Assembly: GCA_018623495.1 (NCBI GenBank)
Contig: JAAZVP010000016.1
Location: 1-52,103, forward strand
DNA length: 52,103 nucleotides
Reading direction: 5' to 3'
DNA from: Halothiobacillus sp.
GTDB taxonomy: Bacteria; Pseudomonadota; Gammaproteobacteria; JAAZVP01
The number at the start of each line of letters is the position of its first letter. The first letter of the stretch is position 1. This document shows, in pieces, positions 40,635 through 52,103 of this stretch. The translations under genes were made by a program, and so were the position numbers. The notes under the pieces were generated by a model, which was given only the letters and a program-made list of their open reading frames with translations, made no database searches and had not been told where the DNA came from.

Positions 40635-41166
40635 CCCTCTCCCCCTCATCCCGGCCTTCTCCCCGACGGGGAGAAGGGGGACGACGCGGGCAGGACTCGG
40701 CCGCGGCGGCCTCCGACGCCCCTCTCCCCCTCATCCCGGCCTTCTCCCCGGCGGGGAGAAGGGGCGGCGGGCAGGACTCGGCCGCGGCGGCCTCCGACGC
40801 CCCATTCCCTCTCCCCCTGGGAGAGGGCAAGGGTGAGGGCGAGGGGTCACCCCCGTGAGGTGGCTGGAGTCAGGCGCCATACACCCTACCCGGCGGGGAG
40901 AAGGGGGACGCGGGCAGGACTCGGCCACGGCGGCGTCCGACGCCCCCTCACCCCCTCATCACGGCCTTCTCCCCGGTGGGGAGAAGGGGGACGCGGGCAG
41001 GACCTGCCACGGCGGCCTCCGACGCCCCATTCTCCCCCTCATCCCGGCCTTCTCCCCGGCGGGGAGAAGGAGGACGCGGGCAGGCCTCGGCCCCGGCGGT
41101 GTCCGACGCCCCATTCCCTCTCCCTCTGGGAGAGGGCAAGGGTGAGGGTGAGGGCGAGGGGTCACC
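40635..41166. repeat. Array of about 85-bp palindromic repeats in two blocks
   Basis: Five copies of a palindromic core, CCTTCTCCCC-x-GGGGAGAAGG, start near 40655, 40740, 40880 (left arm damaged), 40965 and 41048, so the period is 85, then 85 and 83 within blocks. Cores are joined by a conserved GC-rich linker (GGGCAGGACTCGGCC..., ending CCGACGCCCC). Each block ends with a second palindrome (CCCTCTCCC-x-GGGAGAGGG) and a GAGGGCGAGGGG tail (40803-40851; 41112-41166). It lies between the convergent exporter and trhP genes. The family looks like an interspersed repetitive element. Open frames here are artefacts. Confidence 0.85.
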
Positions 41167-42541
41167 CCGCCTCCACCACCTCCGATTCCTCGAAGTAACG
41201 GGCGATCAGGCCCTGCTCGGCGGCCTCGGGGGGCATGGGGATGCGCACGGTCCAGCCGCCACCCGGTGCCACTTCCAGCGGCCTGCCGTGGCGGTCCTCC
41301 ATGCGCTCGAGGGTGACGTCGCGGTTGCCCGAGGGCAGGACGAATTCCAGCCGGTCGCCCACGGCGAACCGGTTCTTGACCGCGACCTCGGCCATGCCGG
41401 TCCCGGCGTCGTAGCCGGTGACCTCGCCCACGAACCGCTGGCGCCGGCTGCGGGAGTGGCCGTCGATGTAGTTCTGGTAGTCGTGGGTGTGGTGGCGCTG
41501 GTAGAAGCCGTCGGTGTAGCCGCGGTTGGCGAGGTTCTCCAGCGTGCCGAGAAGCCCCGGGTCGAAGGGCCGGCCGGCCACGGCGTCGTCGATGGCCTGG
41601 CGGTAGACCTGGGCGGTGCGCGCCTGGTAGTAGGGCGACTTGGTGCGCCCCTCGATCTTCAGGCAGTCCACGCCGATCTCCACCAGCCGCTCGACGTGCT
41701 CCACGGCCCGCAGGTCCTTGGAGTTCATGATGTAGGTGCCGTGCTCGTCCTCCATCACCGGCATCAGCTCCCCGGGGCGATTGGACTCCTCGAGGAAGTA
41801 GACGTCGTCGGCCTTGGGATGGCGCTGGGCCCCGCCGCAGTCGGCGATCGCGTTGGCCGCGTTGAGGTCCTCCATGGAGATGGACGCCTCGGCGGGACGG
41901 ATGACCCCCTCGGCGTCCTCGGTGGCCCGGATGGTCTTGTAGTCCCAGCGGCAGGCGTTGGTACAGGTCCCCTGGTTGGGGTCGCGGTGGTTGAAGTAGC
42001 CCGAGAGCAGGCAGCGACCGGAATAGGCGATGCACAGCGCCCCGTGGACGAAGACCTCGAGCTCCATGTCCGGGCATTCCTGGCGGATCTCCTCGATCTC
42101 GTCGAGCGAGAGCTCGCGGGAGAGGATGATGCGCTCCACGCCCACCGACTGCCAGAAACGCACCGACTGGAAGTTCATGGTGTTGGCCTGGACGGAGAGG
42201 TGGATGGGGACCTCCGGCCAGCGCTCGCGGGCCAGCATGATCAGCCCGGGATCGGACATGATCAGCGCGTCCGGGCCCATGGCCACCACCGGCTCGATGT
42301 CCTCGACGAAGGTCCGCACCTTGCCGTTGTGCGGCATGGTATTGACCGTGAGGTAGAACTGCCGGCCACGCTCGTGGGCCTCGCGGATCCCGCGGGCGAG
42401 GTTGTCGTTCATGAACTCGTTGTTGCGCACCCGCAGGCTGTAGCGGGGCTGGCCGGCGTAGACGGCGTCGGCGCCGTAGTCGAAGGCCGCGCGCATGCCC
42501 TTGAGGGTGCCGGCGGGCGAGAGGAGTTCGGGTTTCTTCAT
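41162..42541 (-). CDS. trhP: Peptidase U32-family tRNA hydroxylase TrhP (YegQ type)
   Basis: A 459-residue YegQ-like protein; family length about 453. Features: LLSPAGTLKGMRAAFDYGADAVYAG at the N terminus, and the Cys cluster C170, C177, C193, C197 (GALCIAYSGRCLLSGYFNHRDP; GTCTNACRWDY) that probably binds an iron-sulfur cluster. The later part has DEHGTYIMNSKDLRA, IEGRTKSPYYQARTAQVYR and a C-terminal beta-barrel. E. coli TrhP makes 5-hydroxyuridine at tRNA position 34 using prephenate-derived chemistry. It stands alone here. The 3' end runs into the repeat array. Confidence 0.92.
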   Translation of the reverse strand: MKKPELLSPAGTLKGMRAAFDYGADAVYAGQPRYSLRVRNNEFMNDNLARGIREAHERGRQFYLTVNTMPHNGKVRTFVEDIEPVVAMGPDALIMSDPGLIMLARERWPEVPIHLSVQANTMNFQSVRFWQSVGVERIILSRELSLDEIEEIRQECPDMELEVFVHGALCIAYSGRCLLSGYFNHRDPNQGTCTNACRWDYKTIRATEDAEGVIRPAEASISMEDLNAANAIADCGGAQRHPKADDVYFLEESNRPGELMPVMEDEHGTYIMNSKDLRAVEHVERLVEIGVDCLKIEGRTKSPYYQARTAQVYRQAIDDAVAGRPFDPGLLGTLENLANRGYTDGFYQRHHTHDYQNYIDGHSRSRRQRFVGEVTGYDAGTGMAEVAVKNRFAVGDRLEFVLPSGNRDVTLERMEDRHGRPLEVAPGGGWTVRIPMPPEAAEQGLIARYFEESEVVEAG

Positions 42542-49355: not shown

Positions 49356-51440
49356 TCAGCCCTCGGCGAGGCTCTCCAGCAGGGCGAGATGGGCGTTGCG
49401 CGGCCGGGCATTGCCCGCCGGGCGCAGGCGCCGGTAGCTGCCGTCGGACTGGAGCACCCAGGCCTGGGTGTTGTCGCCGAGGTAGGTGTCGAAGGTCTCG
49501 CGGATGATGCGGCGCTTGAGGCGGGCATCCTCCACCGGGAAACAGGTCTCGACCCGGCGGAAGAAGTTGCGCGGCATCCAGTCCGCGCTGGAAAGAAAGA
49601 TCTCCTCGTCGCCGTCGTTGTGGAAACAGAACACCCGGGTGTGCTCCAGGAAGCGGCCCATCACCGAGCGCACGTGGATGTTCTCGGAGACCCCTTCCAC
49701 GCCGGGACGCAGGCAGCACACCCCGCGGATCACCAGTTCCACCTTCACGCCGGCGCGCGAGGCCTCGTAGAGCGCCTCGATCACCTCCTGTTCGATCAGG
49801 GCATTCATCTTGGCGCGGATCAGCGCCTTCTTGCCCGCGCGGGCGTTCTCGGCCTCGCGGCGGATGCGCTCGATCATCCCGGCGTGCAGGGTGAAGGGCG
49901 ACTGCAGGATCTTGCCCAGCGCCTGGCTGCGGCCCAGGCCGGTGAGCTGCTGGAAGAGCTTGTGCACGTCCTCGCCCAGCACGCGGTCGTCGGAGAGCAT
50001 GCCGTAGTCGGTGTAGGCCTTGGCGGTGCCCGCGTGGTAGTTGCCCGTCCCCAGGTGGACGAAACGCTTGAGGCGATCCCCCTGGCGGCGCACCACCAGG
50101 GCCATCTTGGCGTGGGTCTTGTGGCCCGCCACGCCGTAGGCGACGTAGGCCCCGGCCCGCTGCAGGCGGGTGGCCAGCTCGATGTTGGCGGCCTCGTCGA
50201 AGCGGGCGCGCAGCTCGATCACCGCCGTGACCTCCTTGCCGGCCCGCGCCGCGTCCACCAGCGCCTCGACGATCTCCGAGCCGGAGCCGGTGCGATAGAG
50301 GGTCTGCTTGATGGCCACCACCTCGGGATCGGCGGCCGCCTGGCGCAGGAACTCCTCCACCGGGGAGAACGACTCGAAGGGATGGTGCAGCAGCAGCGGT
50401 CCCTCGCGCTCGATGGCCTCGAAGATGTTGGCTTTCTCGGCCAGGCATTCCGGCACACCCGGGTTGAAGGCCGGGTACTTGAGATCCGGCCGATCGACCA
50501 GTTCCACCACCGCCATCAGCCGGTGCAGGTTGACCGGGCCGCGGACCTGGTAGAGATCGCGCTCCTGGAGGCCGAACTTGTCCAGCAGGAAGCGGCTTAC
50601 GCCGTCGGGGCAGTTGTCGGCCACCTCCAGGCGCACGGCATCGCCGTAGTGGCGCTGGCGCAGCTCGCCCTGGAGGGCCTTGAGCAGGTCCTCGATCTCC
50701 TCCTCCTCGACGAACAGGTCGGAGTTGCGGGTCACGCGGAACTGGTAACAGCCGGTGACCTTCATGCCCGGGAACAGCTCGCCCACGTGAGCATGGATGA
50801 TCGAAGAGAGGAAGACGAAGCTGTGCGGACCGTCGCCGATGGCCTCGGGCAGCTGGATCAACCGCGGCAATGCACGGGGGGCCTGGACGATGGCCATGCC
50901 GCTGTCCCGGCCGAAGGCATCCTTGCCCTCCAGGGTGACGGCGAAGTTGAGGCTCTTGTTCAGGATCCGCGGGAAGGGATGGGCATGGTCCAGCCCCAGC
51001 GGGGTGAGCAGCGGCAGCAGCTCGCGACGAAAATAGTCCTTGACCCAGCGTTGCTGGGCATCGTTCCAGTGCGTGCGGCGCACGAAGCGGATCTGCTCCT
51101 CGGCGAGCAGCGGGATCAGCGTGTCGTTGAGGCACTTGTACTGGGCGTCCACCAGCCGGTGGGCCTGGTCGCCGATCGCCTCCAGCTGCTCCGGGGGCGT
51201 CATGCCGTCGGGGCCGCGCGTGGTCACGCCCAGTTCCACCTGGTGACGCGTGCCCGCCGCGCGGATCTCGAAGAACTCGTCCAGGTTGCTCGAAGAGATG
51301 CAGAGAAAGAACAACCGCTGCAGCAGCGGGACGTCGTCGTCCATCGCCAGGTCCAGCACCCGGCGGTTGAACTGGAGCAGGCTCAGCTCGCGGTTGATGT
51401 AGAGATCGGTACGCTCGAGATCGACGGTTTGCTCGGCCAT
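49356..51440 (-). CDS. ppk: Polyphosphate kinase 1
   Basis: A 694-residue Ppk1, normal length. The N-terminal domain starts YINRELSLLQFNRRVLDLA and includes LFFLCISSSNLDEFFEIR. The catalytic domains hold H440 in GHKTHAKMALVVRR (the phosphorylated His), H607 in FCFHNDGDEEIFLSSADWMPRN, and RFDEAANIELATRL and TGNYHAGTAKAYTD. It builds polyphosphate from ATP reversibly. It is convergent to ppx and the small secreted protein, so synthesis and breakdown are separately transcribed. No clear promoter: TAGAAT at about 51486-51491 (minus) is a possible -10. Confidence 0.95.
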   Translation of the reverse strand: MAEQTVDLERTDLYINRELSLLQFNRRVLDLAMDDDVPLLQRLFFLCISSSNLDEFFEIRAAGTRHQVELGVTTRGPDGMTPPEQLEAIGDQAHRLVDAQYKCLNDTLIPLLAEEQIRFVRRTHWNDAQQRWVKDYFRRELLPLLTPLGLDHAHPFPRILNKSLNFAVTLEGKDAFGRDSGMAIVQAPRALPRLIQLPEAIGDGPHSFVFLSSIIHAHVGELFPGMKVTGCYQFRVTRNSDLFVEEEEIEDLLKALQGELRQRHYGDAVRLEVADNCPDGVSRFLLDKFGLQERDLYQVRGPVNLHRLMAVVELVDRPDLKYPAFNPGVPECLAEKANIFEAIEREGPLLLHHPFESFSPVEEFLRQAAADPEVVAIKQTLYRTGSGSEIVEALVDAARAGKEVTAVIELRARFDEAANIELATRLQRAGAYVAYGVAGHKTHAKMALVVRRQGDRLKRFVHLGTGNYHAGTAKAYTDYGMLSDDRVLGEDVHKLFQQLTGLGRSQALGKILQSPFTLHAGMIERIRREAENARAGKKALIRAKMNALIEQEVIEALYEASRAGVKVELVIRGVCCLRPGVEGVSENIHVRSVMGRFLEHTRVFCFHNDGDEEIFLSSADWMPRNFFRRVETCFPVEDARLKRRIIRETFDTYLGDNTQAWVLQSDGSYRRLRPAGNARPRNAHLALLESLAEG

Positions 51441-51761
51441 GGGAAGCGGTCCTGTTGGGCTGCTGTGGCTCGGTGAGAATCCCTGATTCTAAAGCATCAC
51501 CGGGGTGACGGCACGGGGCGCGGGAGGGCGGAGTCGGGCGTGCCGGGTGCGTCGGTCGTGGCGGTCACCTTCGCCGGTGCGGGCTTTGCGGGCCCGCGTT
51601 TCGCGGACCGGGGGCCGCGCTGGGTTGGCCCGTGCGCCCCGGCCCCGGGAATGGGCGGTGGATGACCGGGGCCGAGCATGACCGGCGGGTGCCCGGGGGG
51701 CGGGGGTCCGGGGGCCGGGGGCACCAGCCTTCCCTGGTGCGGGGTTCCTGCTCGGCATCCT
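51441..51761. other. Intergenic region upstream of ppk
   Basis: About 320 very GC-rich bases with no convincing gene; open frames on both strands are low-complexity Pro/Arg/Gly. One clean hairpin occurs at 51721-51740 (GCACCAG/CTGGTGC around CCTTCC). A segment GGTTCC...CTCGGCATCC (about 51741-51760) recurs at about 51991-52011 and introduces the repeat units that follow. Confidence 0.55.
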
Positions 51762-52103
51762 TGCCTCGCGTTCCGCCGACGTGCGGAGCAACATTCGGTT
51801 GCTCCGGTTCGGCTTCACCCCTGCCTCGCGTTCCGCCGACGTGCGGAGCAACTTCGGTTGCTCCGGTTCGGCTTCACCCCTGCCTTGCGTGATCCGCGCT
51901 GCGGAGTGACATCAAGTCACTCCGGCCGCGTTCACCCGGGGGATCAATGGCAGGCGCGCCGGGGTTCCGGGGGCCGAGCCCTCCTTGGCGCGGGGTTCCT
52001 GCTCGGCATCCCTGCCTCGCGTTCCGCCGACGTGCGGAGCAACATTCGGTTGCTCCGGTTCGGCTTCACCCCTGCCTCGCGTTCCGCCGACGTGCGGAGC
52101 AAC
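51762..52103. repeat. Array of about 60-bp hairpin repeats running off the window
   Basis: Units begin TGCCTCGCG at 51762, 51822, 51881 (divergent), 52013 and 52073 (cut by the window edge); spacing is 60, 59, then after a gap 60. Each has a small stem TCCGC/GCGGA and a perfect 8-bp stem GGAGCAAC/GTTGCTCC (51785-51805, 51845-51864, 52036-52056). The divergent unit has GGAGTGAC/GTCACTCC (51903-51923), also perfect. The two stems share GGA, so only one can form at a time. A larger block that includes the introduction at 51741 or 51991 seems duplicated. Nature unknown. Confidence 0.85.

Follow-up and report, generated by a model that had tools for sequence, protein, structure and literature searches.

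A REP-like extragenic palindromic repeat of Halothiobacillus sp. that may act at mRNA 3' ends

A hairpin-forming repeat occupies the end of the window (the whole 52,103-nt stretch of DNA that was analysed). It occurs in ~24 copies genome-wide, which fall into five unit types and all lie within two intergenic arrays or inside a dispersed element (MITE). We interpret it as a lineage-specific, REP-like extragenic palindromic repeat that probably acts at mRNA 3' ends, a function that we infer, and we place this reading a little above even odds (a probability of roughly 0.55). The repeat is probably a local version of REPs, well-known elements that shape bacterial mRNA ends; it has been found so far in one bacterium.

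Two arrays behind pstB and xerD

The features at the window end are as follows.

49356..51440, minus strand: ppk1, polyphosphate kinase; on the gene strand its start codon follows the array after ~270 nt
51729..51768, minus strand: leader half of the ~95-nt unit (CCTTCCCTGGTGCGGGGTTCCTGCTCGGCATCC...), common to the xerD-dsbC array
51773..51815, minus strand: type-1 hairpin, copy 1; outer stem GCCGA/TCGGC, inner stem CGGAGCAAC/GTTGCTCCG, with GGGGTGA before it on the gene (minus) strand
51833..51874, minus strand: type-1 hairpin, copy 2; loop TTCG, one base shorter
51894..51931, minus strand: type-2 hairpin (divergent copy); outer stem CGCG/CGCG, inner stem CGGAGTGAC/GTCACTCCG
51980..52019, minus strand: leader half of the ~95-nt unit, second copy
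52024..52066, minus strand: type-1 hairpin, copy 3
52084..52103, minus strand: type-1 hairpin, truncated by the contig and window end; the array resumes on contig C110

The full GGAGCAAC/GTTGCTCC hairpins lie at 51785-51805, 51845-51864 (the copy with the shorter loop) and 52036-52056, and the single GGAGTGAC/GTCACTCC hairpin in the window part of the array lies at 51903-51923. An earlier sequence-only reading had located these stems correctly (three full GGAGCAAC copies, one GGAGTGAC copy and one truncated copy), and the two paired positions that it saw differing on both arms of the divergent copy are indeed there. The interval that it gave for the repeat, 51762-52103, is right in its coordinates but too short, because the array begins earlier, with a direct repeat of 145 nt from 51708 (51708-51852 versus 51959-52103, 93% identical). 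It had also missed a second, outer stem on the hairpin.

The unit is ~95 nt long (90-105 nt across the arrays) and consists of a leader followed by a two-tier hairpin, in which an 8-9 bp inner stem (GGAGYRAC/GTYRCTCC) and a 4-6 bp outer stem flank an asymmetric internal loop. On the gene strand the unit boundary is GGGTGA, and the arrangement is head to tail in both arrays. The canonical hairpin pairs perfectly in all array copies, and single-strand folding z values range from -2.6 to -4.1. We rejected a protein-coding array, as the copy with the one-base-shorter loop breaks the frame.

The array continues beyond the window and upstream of ppk, as had been proposed. Bases 1-446 of contig C110 lie inside it, with a period of 192 nt in which types 1 and 2 alternate, and it runs up to the stop codon of pstB (minus strand, identified by TIGR00972). 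We infer the join of contigs C85 and C110 because the assembly breaks there; it is very probable because these are the only two contigs with units of the ppk array at their ends. The gene-strand order is thus very probably pstB, array, ppk, with the array filling the gap between the two genes. The nearest Ppk found is that of Ectothiorhodospira (67% identity).

The second array was recovered on two further contigs.

L162 (contig C68), 1-330: xerD side; 3.3 copies of a 90-nt unit and a canonical hairpin adjoining xerD
L206 (contig C78), 1-181: dsbC side; the same units, adjoining a gene read as dsbC

xerD was identified by TIGR02225, and for the dsbC candidate the best NCBIfam match is DsbC, with E = 4.5e-46, below the model's cut-off. 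The two arrays have the full ~95-105 nt unit in common at 84-85% identity, with the same unit order, ends and orientation relative to the upstream gene. In the xerD-dsbC array, the 90-nt units except the last carry an altered hairpin.

On the gene strand, GGGTGA or GGGGTGA stands before each array hairpin. At both of the two known array heads, the upstream gene takes its stop codon, TGA, from the conserved GGGTGA of the unit (the C-terminal ends are ...ITGRYG* for pstB and ...RHHPRG* for xerD). The 6-bp outer stem begins at the base right after the stop codon at both heads, with zero spacing, and the predicted energies of the pstB and xerD head hairpins are -31.7 and -32.8 kcal/mol. Units other than the head have no contact with a stop codon; with only two heads known, the placement is suggestive as a general property of the unit.

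Unit types, the MITE and covariation

The pattern TGCGGAGNNACN{3,7}GTNNCTCCGG has 20 copies in the genome and 0 in the reversed control. This strict pattern also gave 0 matches in 184 other gammaproteobacterial genomes, none of them of the same genus, family or order, and we therefore do not attribute the matches to chance. A covariance model built from six sequences added diverged copies to the strict-pattern set. The five unit types are listed below.

Type T1, pstB-ppk array: GGAGCAAC; outer stem GCCGA/TCGGC
Type T2, pstB-ppk array: GGAGTGAC; outer stem CGCG/CGCG
Type X, second array (C68/C78): GGAGCGAC; outer stem GCCGAG/CTCGGC
Type B1, inside the MITE: GGAGCAAC; outer stem GGCAG/CTGCC
Type B2, inside the MITE: GGAGCGAC; outer stem ACCGGG/CCCGGT

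Two sets of candidate homologues were discarded: a weak match in another genome (L228), which falls within an apparent protein-coding frame and has no repeats around it, and three pattern matches in viral contigs, whose flanks are unrelated.

The elements that contain types B1 and B2 have terminal inverted repeats GGAACCTCTGCACGAAT and ends GGAACCTCTGCACGAATCGATRGYG; the latter have 36 matches in the genome versus 0 for the reversed control.

L008, L011, L125, L133, L138, L141, L146 and others: members of the MITE family, 265-620 bp

Members measure 265-339 and 620 bp. Three intact copies are flanked by 4-bp target duplications (CTAG, CTAA or CTTG), and several others have imperfect duplications. 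The host element of B1 and B2 has no coding capacity, in keeping with a MITE. By target type the family may be IS5-like; no autonomous partner of it was seen. The 620-bp element carries both hairpins, the 282- and 289-bp elements the B1 hairpin alone, and the 265-, 338- and 339-bp elements neither. In linker and loop features T1 goes with B1 and T2 with B2, and therefore the array and MITE modules are probably of common ancestry, with transfer conceivable in either direction.

Other repeats occur in the same genome. An IS200/IS605 element with tnpA and tnpB lies at L039 1561-1680 (contig C80) and also at C65:59584. Its right-end hairpin ACCGGAGCATCCTTCGGGTGCTCCGGCA resembles the inner stem of the unit at E = 0.59, and at that value we do not claim kinship with the right-end hairpin GGAGCATCCTTCGGGTGCTCC (C80, C65). 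In the window, an 83-nt tandem repeat with GGGAGAGGG-type palindromes spans 40889-41165, and GGGGTGA likewise forms the end of the adjoining gene (41162-42541, minus strand), where that gene meets the repeat.

We assessed whether pairing is kept among the copies, as the sequence-only reading had proposed. In an alignment (A4) of 16 distinct rows, which was fitted to the structure and contains related rows of ~5 independent types, 97.7% of the pairing cells pair, compared with 85.8% (sd 1.3) in shuffles. Changes on both sides affect 7 of the 14 pairs versus 4.2 (sd 1.1) in shuffles (3 of 500 shuffles reach 7), and the covariation score is 0.371 versus 0.151 (0 of 500 as high). Slid structures pair at ≤51.2%. 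All five outer-stem pairs have changes on both sides, and a manual alignment in which each type has a single row gave double changes at the same seven pairs. Covariation beyond that first noticed is therefore present, far above both the shuffled and the slid controls.

The hairpin pairing is maintained, and the compensatory differences separate the ~5 unit types. Some MITE-borne copies show one-arm decay (L140, L151, L023), and L140 combines a T2-like 5' arm with a B1-type 3' arm. The compensatory differences seen in the earlier reading are real, but its claim that they imply selection goes too far, since both arms of a palindrome can also be altered together by template switching. Selection is a likely cause of the maintained pairing; other causes are possible.

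Possible function and rival explanations

The repeat may work like a REP. It would have spread as DNA, and tandem duplication would have raised its copy number. In pstB and xerD transcripts, the head hairpin (~-32 kcal/mol) would hinder the terminating ribosome, by analogy with REPs that lie no more than 15 nt from a stop codon, and could likewise shield the mRNA 3' end. As an outcome, the upstream gene (pstB, xerD) would be expressed differently from ppk or dsbC. A bolder version, which we consider doubtful, is that a mobile hairpin with its own stop-codon signature (GGGTGA plus stem) inserts itself precisely at the ends of genes, forms tandem copies and so resets the pstB:ppk and xerD:dsbC output ratio, with copy number as a tuning knob.

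The arrays might instead be passive repeat DNA, that is, functionless MITE debris or modules that slipped into tandem intergenic arrays, with paired changes from template switching or arm-to-arm correction. We regard this as unlikely on balance but as a serious possibility: these hairpins also occur within a MITE that has terminal inverted repeats and target duplications, some MITE copies decay on one arm, copies are homogenised inside an array, and perfect stems are known products of template switching, which also maintains them and can give coordinated arm changes (PMC8794818). Passive DNA does not readily account for the exact placement of both arrays at a stop codon, with one common orientation, for the perfect pairing of the canonical hairpin in all array copies or for double changes throughout the outer stem. 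That the repeat is a RAYT-mobilised REP proper, of the GTAG or CGTC superfamily, is improbable. Although its hairpin size and intergenic position after genes fit and the genome encodes a RAYT, the GTAG tag is absent from all types, and CGTC or TGTC is present only in type-1 copies, overlapping the outer stem, and absent from T2, B1, B2 and X. The linked RAYT-type transposase that had been suggested did not materialise: the RAYT at L043 1397-1800 is flanked by different repeats (GTGGGAGCGGCGTCCCCGCCGCGAA / GTGGGAGCGGC REPs in a classical BIME layout), and a second REP-type Y1 protein, with an in-frame stop codon, has other flanking repeats.

A further rival, which takes up the two folds raised in the sequence-only reading and which we consider very improbable, is that the array acts upstream of ppk as a regulatory RNA with a defined structure or as an RNA switch with two states. 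The covarying helix with its conserved internal loop, and its place upstream of ppk, would suit such an RNA, but an Rfam search of 51450-52103 gave no match at gathering or at E ≤ 1, no such repeat was found near ppk in 80 other ppk loci, and the second array sits at xerD-dsbC, so the arrays have no functional theme. All four types tested contain the alternative TCCGC/GCGGA stem, but its fold reaches -14.7 kcal/mol versus -24.5 kcal/mol for the main hairpin, and enforcing it costs ~9-12 kcal/mol on the plus strand and ~10-14 kcal/mol on the minus strand; a thermodynamic switch is therefore not supported. Least probable is an array of intrinsic transcription terminators: stable GC-rich hairpins right after stop codons recall them, but there is no T run after the hairpins, which therefore do not qualify as intrinsic terminators, and 51400-52103 contains no terminator-like site.

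If the REP-like reading is true, an untagged palindromic family occupies the REP niche, the first bases after the stop codon, apparently without a matching RAYT. Hairpin modules common to a MITE and to intergenic arrays in one genome would mark a possible origin route for such repeats. With five unit types side by side in one genome, the family also lends itself to a small natural test of whether compensatory changes come from selection or from template switching.

Comparison with known systems

This genome has a further family of dispersed palindromes, TwoAYGGAY RNA (Rfam RF01731), whose stem is GGAGCGAC/GTCGCTCC. Its inner stem is as in B2 and X, but its loop (ACGGAC) and flanks differ, and the ppk array has no RF01731 match with AYGGAY loops; we treated the two as separate. 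Six dispersed TwoAYGGAY copies lie in long palindromic repeats (L024, L025, L027, L028, L029, L031), which suggests that this "RNA" family behaves here like a mobile repeat. As to MITEs with terminal inverted repeats and a 4-bp duplication, one such element here contains these hairpins as internal modules. The hairpin is only one part of the MITE, however, and around the arrays we saw no terminal inverted repeats.

REP/BIME elements form the GTAG and CGTC superfamilies (PMC3733652, PMC2817692). They lie near the 3' ends of upstream genes, downstream of co-directional genes, and a TAG stop is often provided by the GTAG terminus (PMC3733652). The array repeat is likewise an imperfect, hairpin-forming extragenic palindrome between co-directional genes, near the upstream stop codon, which it provides in some cases. 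It differs in its two-tier stem, in its direct head-to-tail arrays as opposed to alternating BIMEs, in lacking an unpaired GTAG or CGTC (TGTC/CCTC) end tag, in its ~24 copies versus often >100 per genome, and in that no cognate RAYT flanked by the same repeat, as in GTAG REPs, was found; because of the tag, copy number and RAYT, we do not file it as a REP. REPs <16 nt (within 15 nt) from a stop codon are described in PMC12306157, citing Liang et al. 2015, as stalling ribosomes and lowering translation. The array repeat belongs to a different sequence family, and a like effect here would be by analogy; what it has in common with the REPs so described is a stable hairpin right after the stop codon.
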